From NCBI GenBank assembly GCA_947629325.1, contig CANRDE010000007.1:1-51472 (forward strand): 51,472 nt of DNA, in the 5' to 3' direction. This DNA comes from an uncultured Bacilli bacterium. Its GTDB lineage: Bacteria > Bacillota_I > Bacilli_A > RF39 > UBA660. This document shows positions 26,167-27,238 of this stretch, piece after piece (position 1 is the first letter of the stretch; each line of letters begins with the position of its first letter). The notes beneath the pieces are model-generated. The model ran no database searches and was not told the DNA's origin. It was given only the letters and a program-made list of their open reading frames with translations. The position numbers and the translations under genes are program-made.

Positions 26167-26724
26167 TTAATATCCTTTGCTTTTATAATATTCATATAAT
26201 TCTTTAAAACGATTAAAATGAACCACTTCTCTTTGTCTTAAAAACAAAAGAGGGGCAAGAACATTTTCATCAGTAGTCAAATCAATTAAATTTTCATATA
26301 CTGCTCTTGCTTTTTGCTCGGCAGCCATATCTTCCATTAAATCAGCAATCGGATCAGCGGTAACAGCAAAATAGGTAGCTGTAAATGGTACTCCGGATGC
26401 ATCAACAGGATAAATCCCCTTGTTATGATCAGCATAATATGATGCTAAGCCGGCTTCTTCTAGTTCTTTAACGGTTGCATTTTTGGTAAGTTGCGATACC
26501 ATCGTACAAATCATTTCACAATGTCCTAATTCTTCTGTACTAATATCATTTAATAAAGCTTTTCCTTTATCATCCGGCATTGTAAATTTTTGGCTGAAAT
26601 AACGCATTGCAGCGGCCAATTCGCCATTAGCACCACCAAACTGAGTTAATAAGTATTTAGCCATTCTTAAGTCTTTCTTAGTAATATTAATTGGATAATT
26701 GGTGTGTTTAACATATTTAAACAT
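26167..26724 (-). CDS. cotJC: Spore coat protein CotJC, manganese-catalase family
   Basis: A 185-residue ferritin-like four-helix protein of the Mn-catalase family, found in the spore coat. Metal-ligand-bearing helices are visible: GANGELAAAMRYFSQ, ISTEELGHCEMI, DMAAEQKARAVYENLI and LRQREVVHFNRF. Length is normal. Its start overlaps the upstream cotJA-cotJB gene by 8 bases, so they are coupled. In Bacillus the cotJ operon is switched on in the mother cell, which matches the promoter seen upstream. Confidence 0.95.
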   Translation of the reverse strand: MFKYVKHTNYPINITKKDLRMAKYLLTQFGGANGELAAAMRYFSQKFTMPDDKGKALLNDISTEELGHCEMICTMVSQLTKNATVKELEEAGLASYYADHNKGIYPVDASGVPFTATYFAVTADPIADLMEDMAAEQKARAVYENLIDLTTDENVLAPLLFLRQREVVHFNRFKELYEYYKSKGY

Positions 26725-27178
26725 ACATATTACCTCCTAAATTTTCCCAAGACCATGGACTATCTATCCATTCAAATTTATCACCTTTGGTTTCATTTAC
26801 TGTTAAAGGTCCATACTTTCTAATATATTCTTCTTTAGCCTCTTTTTCTTCTTTTATAAATTCTTCTAAAAGACGTAGGGCCTGTTTATCTTCAGGATGT
26901 AAATCCAAATATAAATTCATATCATTAATGGCAAAAGAATATTCCATTACTGTATATAATTTGGCCTCTCTATCATTATTAGGGCGAATATTTATATAAG
27001 TTAAATTTTTATATGGTTTATATTCGTCTTTAAACATATTTCCCTTTAAAAAGCCTTCTTTAGCGTTTAAAAACTTAGGACTAGTAGCAAATGATTGACT
27101 AGAGTTAACAGATGTGGGAACACCAGCCAAGTTTAATAAGGAAAAATCTAAATCAATATTGTTATTATCAAATAACAT
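26717..27178 (-). CDS. CotJA-CotJB fusion spore coat protein
   Basis: Two normally separate proteins appear in one 153-residue frame. Residues about 30-52 carry the CotJA signature (a KEGFLKGNMFKDEYKPY pattern matching the ALxxGTxFPxLYxPY motif). Residues about 70-150 are CotJB (YSFAINDMNLYLDLHPEDKQAL, KYGPLT, SPWSWENLGG). The first 27 residues are Asn-rich and unique. Usual sizes are about 70-80 plus about 85-90 residues, so the sum fits a compact fusion. TAGGAGGT precedes the ATG. Confidence 0.85.
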   Translation of the reverse strand: MLFDNNNIDLDFSLLNLAGVPTSVNSSQSFATSPKFLNAKEGFLKGNMFKDEYKPYKNLTYINIRPNNDREAKLYTVMEYSFAINDMNLYLDLHPEDKQALRLLEEFIKEEKEAKEEYIRKYGPLTVNETKGDKFEWIDSPWSWENLGGNMYV

Positions 27179-27198
27179 AAAAAAATTACCTCCTACAT

Positions 27199-27229
27199 TA
27201 ATGTATGAGATAATTAAAATGTCTTATAT
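27199..27229 (-). promoter_or_regulatory. Mother-cell sigma (SigE/SigK-like) promoter of the cotJ operon
   Basis: On the minus strand ATATAAG (27229-27223), a 15-base spacer and CATACATTA (27207-27199). The -10 fits both SigE (CATACANT) and SigK (CATANNNTA), and the -35 fits SigE (ATA core). The ribosome site follows about 10 bases later. Bacillus cotJ is known to be SigE-dependent. Confidence 0.75.
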
Positions 27230-27238
27230 GTTTTTTGC

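Follow-up and report, generated by a model that had tools for sequence, protein, structure and literature searches.

The open reading frame that we call cotJAB, from the draft genome of an uncultured gut Bacilli bacterium, encodes a single protein of 153 aa in which a segment derived from CotJA precedes an entire CotJB domain; it stands at the head of cotJC. A reading of the DNA made earlier from its letters (hereafter the sequence-only reading) had proposed this arrangement, and it is borne out by the analysis described here. The fusion is a new architecture of the known cotJ operon and a conserved variant of it. It is not peculiar to the genome studied: all 64 distinct frames from the same family group (f1) are fused, as are most of those in several other groups. 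We consider it very probable that the fusion is real and that its product is a coat protein. No report of a CotJA-CotJB fusion was found in the literature searched, which covers few subscription journals. For specialists, the result is a tidy and useful one, if not very surprising.

The cotJAB gene and its locus

The window, by which we mean the whole stretch of 51,472 nucleotides that was analysed, comes from a draft genome of 883,844 bases in 34 contigs that is 82% complete. Within it, cotJAB occupies positions 26717-27178 of the minus strand, a strand that the sequence-only reading had not given, and opens with an ATG. Residues 1-37 (27068-27178) form an Asn-rich, low-complexity N-terminus, residues 38-58 (27005-27067) the second half of the CotJA domain, residues 59-73 (26960-27004) a linker of nearly fixed length, and residues 74-145 (26744-26959) the CotJB domain. 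The last of these scores 82.8 bits against PF12652 (cut-off 29) and covers positions 4-76 of that 76-position profile. AlphaFold was given the window protein along with 33 relatives. Its model has modest confidence (pLDDT 65.9, pTM 0.55; pLDDT below 50 for residues 1-31) and predicts helices at residues 69-93 and 98-122, which would make the CotJB domain a helical hairpin, together with a short helix at residues 39-45 within the CotJA segment. Foldseek found no match to the model in the PDB at E<=0.001, and a profile search of PDB sequences returned a single match, which at E 0.78 we took as chance. In the alignment of fused proteins (A1), methionine is the residue seen most often at the position of Met78 (33 of 59 rows), so an internal restart could yield free CotJB.

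Directly downstream lies cotJC (26167-26724, minus strand), encoding a manganese-catalase-like coat protein of 185 aa that scores 174.3 bits against PF05067 (Mn_catalase). The coordinates of the two ORFs bear out the 8-base overlap previously described (26717-26724), and the same -8 offset recurs in 55 of the 94 distinct frames drawn from f1 genomes (64) and public contigs (30). The window departs from the usual layout of three separate cotJ genes, the CotJA segment and cotJB being one frame. cotJC is placed next in 164 of the 167 distinct CotJB frames that we collected; one of the remaining three, from family group f13, has a cotJC match with no nearby start codon, and in the other two (L083 and L182) no cotJC was seen. 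A GGAGG at 26733-26737 of the minus strand, read from the sequence as the cotJC ribosome-binding site, falls within the end of cotJAB, so that the stretch coding for the tail GGNMYV doubles as the start region of cotJC. cotJAB is probably translationally coupled to cotJC.

Upstream of cotJAB, again on the minus strand, an AGGAGG at 27189-27194 serves as the putative ribosome-binding site and is preceded by CATACATTA (27199-27207), a -10-like element of mother-cell sigma type, and by CATATAAG (27223-27230), a possible -35-like element. We take the former to resemble the -10 of the mother-cell sigma factors E and K. Among 93 fused loci of f1 genomes and public contigs, 82 have the core CATANNNT upstream, where 11.9 would be expected from single-base shuffles, and the two-part pattern ATA-N14..20-CATANNNT is present in 39 of the 93 (2.6 expected) and was not seen in the other 54. 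Elsewhere the core occurs in 11 of 12 loci in f5, 5 of 6 in f13, 5 of 9 in f16, 4 of 9 in f21, 3 of 5 in f18 and 1 of 2 in f3, the whole count covering 138 of 140 fused frames. In the window, CATANNNTA was found within 90 bases upstream of 3 of the 45 ORFs tested, cotJAB included (of 49 ORFs, the four overlapping others on the opposite strand were omitted). The upstream regions of spoIVA in members of the same genus contain CATANNNTA in 0 of 19 cases, so that any assignment of cotJAB to a particular sigma factor is tentative. In all 19, CATAGCATTA follows a GNATA element; a twentieth region was dropped when no start was found. Across these spoIVA loci (L230-L249 without L232) the conserved GNATA is followed after some 16-18 bases by CATAGCATTA, ahead of the ribosome-binding site, and this block is a likely mother-cell promoter.

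Identity of the CotJA segment

The Pfam model for CotJA (PF11007) gave no match to the window protein. Across the window's genome it found nothing at E<=0.001 and one stray match, on contig C9, at E<=10, and even at the latter threshold it reaches just 16 of the 59 members of A1. With Pfam models, then, CotJB is the only domain detectable in the window protein, an outcome that the sequence-only reading had named as refuting a fusion, but the relatives, an independent CotJA profile, profile-profile alignment and a reverse search together overturn it. Two relatives each possess one frame that passes both Pfam cut-offs, G049 with 34.8 bits for CotJA and 80 for CotJB, and G074 (family group f3) with 26.3 and 93 bits, the CotJA cut-off being 25 bits. 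The search with both models that had been suggested as a check therefore succeeds in these genomes, although PF11007 misses the window protein itself. In G074 the PF11007 match spans positions 2-35 of 35, from which we conclude that this protein retains the whole CotJA domain.

A profile (A3) built on six CotJA proteins that are encoded separately in families f8 and f11 returned one match in the window's genome at E<=0.1, namely residues 38-58 of cotJAB (E 0.0094). In the genus it matches inside cotJAB in 17 of 37 genomes, the window's included, and gives no match there in the other 20; five stray matches fall outside cotJAB, at E 0.015-0.092. When a 25-column block of the fused proteins was aligned to A3 with hhalign, a probability of 96.7 and a score of 42.3 were obtained, compared with scores of 14.2 or below for 30 column shuffles of the same block; hhalign of A2 against A3 gave 85.5%. 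In the reverse direction, a profile of the fused block was run against 762 ORFs of 26 split loci, and the CotJA motif is present in each of the best 24 ORFs, of which 12 have E<=0.003 and the 24th has E 0.35, the 25th being a chance match.

The homologous segment is short, at about 21-25 residues. Alignment shows the second half of CotJA to be recognisable in the window protein; the first half (AYVPxQ), present in separate CotJA proteins, is replaced by the Asn-rich stretch, which is modelled with low confidence. As judged from this alignment, CotJA is retained in the window protein as its second half only, and the "CotJA signature" of the sequence-only reading accordingly stands as true homology to CotJA, but to half of that domain. 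The fusion marks the part of CotJA that has been kept, a GxxFxxxYxPY segment. There is also a practical consequence for gene surveys: PF11007, applied at its cut-off, will score cotJA as absent here and in the majority of fused relatives that were tested. A hidden separate cotJA elsewhere in the genome was also considered, and none was found by Pfam and A3 profile searches of the 82% that the assembly represents.

Distribution and origin of the fusion

The survey of relatives that had been proposed was carried out on 167 distinct CotJB frames, counting once those that are alike over their last 90 residues. These comprise 140 fused frames in nine family groups, 23 split frames in four groups and 4 frames without CotJA by the test used. 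The fused frames come from f1 genomes (64), public contigs without a family code (30), f5 (12), f16 (10), f21 (9), f13 (6), f18 (5), f3 (2), f7 (1) and f30 (1), and the split frames from f8 (8), f11 (7), f19 (6) and f13 (2), f13 being a mixed group that also includes one frame without CotJA by this test. "f1" is the default label on 94 rows, which combine the 64 from f1 genomes with the 30 from public contigs (L031-L063). Omitted from the count were L101-L115, L146, L207-L221 and L223-L226, some of which are repeats and others f1 genomes otherwise uncovered. The fused alignment A1 matches 118 of 395 genomes in a sample of the class and 67 of 392 in a sample of the phylum, every one of the latter in the window's class. 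All 33 public contigs found have both motifs in one frame; the public records encoding close relatives are titled uncultured Bacilli, Tenericutes, Mycoplasma sp., Erysipelotrichaceae and others, with one titled Clostridia.

A1 is also the source of the CotJA block profile, which makes 58 of the 140 fused rows fused by construction; the other 82 are absent from A1, 43 of them lie outside f1, and their CotJA scores run from 4.9 to 41.1 bits, the two lowest-scoring (L153 and L154) being weak. The split calls in f13 are based on 4.5-5.3 bits, with no E-value floor applied. Of the four frames without CotJA by the count test (L094, L165, L194 and L197), the first is from a genome (G083) that has CotJA by Pfam at 44.1 bits, L194 and L197 have weak matches to the fused-block profile, and L165 has none. 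The CotJA block and the CotJB model are offset by 34 in 119 of the 140 fused proteins, by 33 in 10, 30 in 6, 29 in 3, and 32 and 35 in one each. This near-constancy fits a structured rather than a floppy join; in split loci, the corresponding offset ranges from 24 to 44 codons of DNA.

Several unusual loci were noted along the way. In L194 and L197 (genomes G343 and G431, f19), CotJB ends frames of 259-286 aa that start with a Cys/Asp-rich repetitive stretch, and a CotJA-like ORF lies upstream. In four f11 loci (L002, L004, L008 and L164) the CotJA motif stands at the end of open frames of some 280-370 aa, and CotJA there may be just the C-terminal end of a larger protein. The G011 bin contains two rather different cotJAB copies (L072 on G011:C2 and L069 on G011:C7), reflecting either a second copy or contamination. 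Fused-model matches at G355:C8:7455-7922 and G439:C2:41561-41926 each hold one TAA, and may be broken copies or upstream extensions of the match.

To consider the direction of change we used a CotJB tree of 92 rows and 86 columns, comprising 19 of the 94 f1-labelled rows and all 73 others, with no root inferred and with the four frames without CotJA handled as split. The split rows fall into two starred groups, for which two changes are needed. Constraining them to one clade was not rejected (AU p 0.503), which fits a single event in either direction. In two split f8 loci (L077 and L162), cotJA and cotJB share a frame that is broken by just one TAG; were that codon lost, the two genes would be joined.

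We weighed three other accounts of the fused frame against a joining of cotJA and cotJB. That an assembly or sequencing error merged two genes could be suspected in an incomplete draft of 34 contigs, but the chance of this is negligible and we rule it out given that the frame recurs in 140 distinct proteins and in each of the 33 public contigs. The N-terminal segment might instead be an unrelated short motif gained by CotJB in this lineage; the silence of PF11007 on the window protein, the shortness of the CotJA match and the similar E-values of the strays in the genus would agree with this. However, the sole match of an independent CotJA profile in the window's own genome sits in cotJAB, directly before CotJB, the hhalign score is far above those of the shuffles, and G049 and G074 clear both Pfam cut-offs in one frame, all of which makes such a gain very improbable. 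A greater, though still low, likelihood attaches to reversed polarity, with the fused form ancestral in these Bacilli and the separate genes produced by fission. The two changes on the unrooted tree and the presence of both forms in f13 are compatible with fission, but B. subtilis has three genes, according to the portion of PMC8745062 dealing with the operon, two f8 loci have a lone in-frame stop codon separating cotJA from cotJB, and a single split clade, which would fit one event either way, is not rejected.

Sporulation context, function and known systems

The window's genome encodes SpoIVA (355.9 bits), Spo0A (216.5 bits) and SpoIIGA (141.9 bits), each over its cut-off, with SpoIIGA directly before a SigE-like gene whose 302.3 bits are below the NCBIfam cut-off of 348.6; the same model matches in 10 of 14 control genomes. 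Presence of CotJB agrees with that of over-cut-off SpoIVA in all 23 non-f1 genomes (8 with both and 15 with neither, the latter including G073, which has a SpoIVA match below cut-off). Among the 37 draft genomes of the genus the two disagree in 6, CotJB being missing in G014, G017 and G031, and SpoIVA in G005, G016 and G028. One of these drafts, G014 (94% complete), has spoIVA divided between two contigs, an internal stop lying in one of the pieces, in addition to lacking a detectable CotJB, and may have lost sporulation.

The window's organism is probably a member of RF39, RFN20 or ML615J-28, all of them orders without cultured members. PMC10868615 predicts spore formation from gene content in RF39 and in parts of the other two, and describes loss of sporulation for related orders. 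Together with the small size of the window's genome (0.88 Mb, 82% complete), such loss would allow the operon to be a relic in a reduced genome that no longer sporulates, or to have been re-used, for example in peroxide defence with CotJC. We regard this as improbable, as the frame is retained in every distinct f1 frame, Spo0A, SpoIIGA and SpoIVA are still present, and CotJB and SpoIVA agree throughout the non-f1 genomes. Taking cotJAB to be a functional sporulation gene, we infer from the promoter-like element and the protein family that it is expressed in the mother cell, and its product is probably a coat protein of the mother cell that works with CotJC.

In B. subtilis, CotJA and CotJC each require the other for assembly. 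For CotJAB we propose that the protein, in which a linker of near-fixed length connects the conserved second half of CotJA to a complete CotJB, is produced by the mother cell during sporulation, probably with its translation coupled to that of cotJC, and enters the spore coat as the partner of CotJC. The CotJB helical hairpin would be the structural part, and the CotJA segment (GNMFxxEYxPYKN) may fold against this hairpin or dock CotJC, the fusion removing the need to deliver a separate CotJA. It may be that CotJAB represents a minimal CotJ unit, half a CotJA and a CotJB at fixed spacing forming one module that docks CotJC into the coat; this is a tentative proposal, to which we would give somewhat less than an even chance. 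If it is true, CotJB would have the role of CotJA's partner, and the fusion would reveal which portion of CotJA can be done without in these possible spore-formers, whose genomes are close to 1 Mb. More broadly, that a whole lineage shares this natural fusion suggests that CotJA and CotJB work together. The sequence-only reading had gone further, arguing that the fusion enforces 1:1 stoichiometry and is direct evidence of joint action; the stoichiometry holds for the parts that are fused, but the evidence for joint action is circumstantial, of the Rosetta-stone kind.

Compared with the Pfam families, the window protein matches the full-length CotJB domain (PF12652) but adds an N-terminal CotJA-derived segment, and it shares the second half of CotJA (PF11007), recognisable through relatives and our own profile, with the first half missing. 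In Clostridioides difficile, the operons CD2399-cotJB2-cotD and CD0596-cotF-cotCB are down-regulated in a sigK mutant, according to part of PMC3789822. Similar to the locus described here, they end in a manganese catalase, and one has cotJB2; they are three-gene operons whose genes are separate as annotated, a distinction from the window fusion drawn by description rather than by sequence. The closest comparison is with the cotJ operon of B. subtilis, given as tricistronic (cotJA-cotJB-cotJC) in the relevant part of PMC8745062, and of which cotJB and cotJC appear in the sigma-E regulon in the part of PMC3416734 that lists it. In the window, too, a CotJB-family domain comes ahead of a CotJC-family gene, and a CotJA motif directly precedes CotJB. 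Unlike in B. subtilis, however, cotJA and cotJB are one gene in which half of CotJA is left, and the start of cotJC overlaps that gene by 8 bases.
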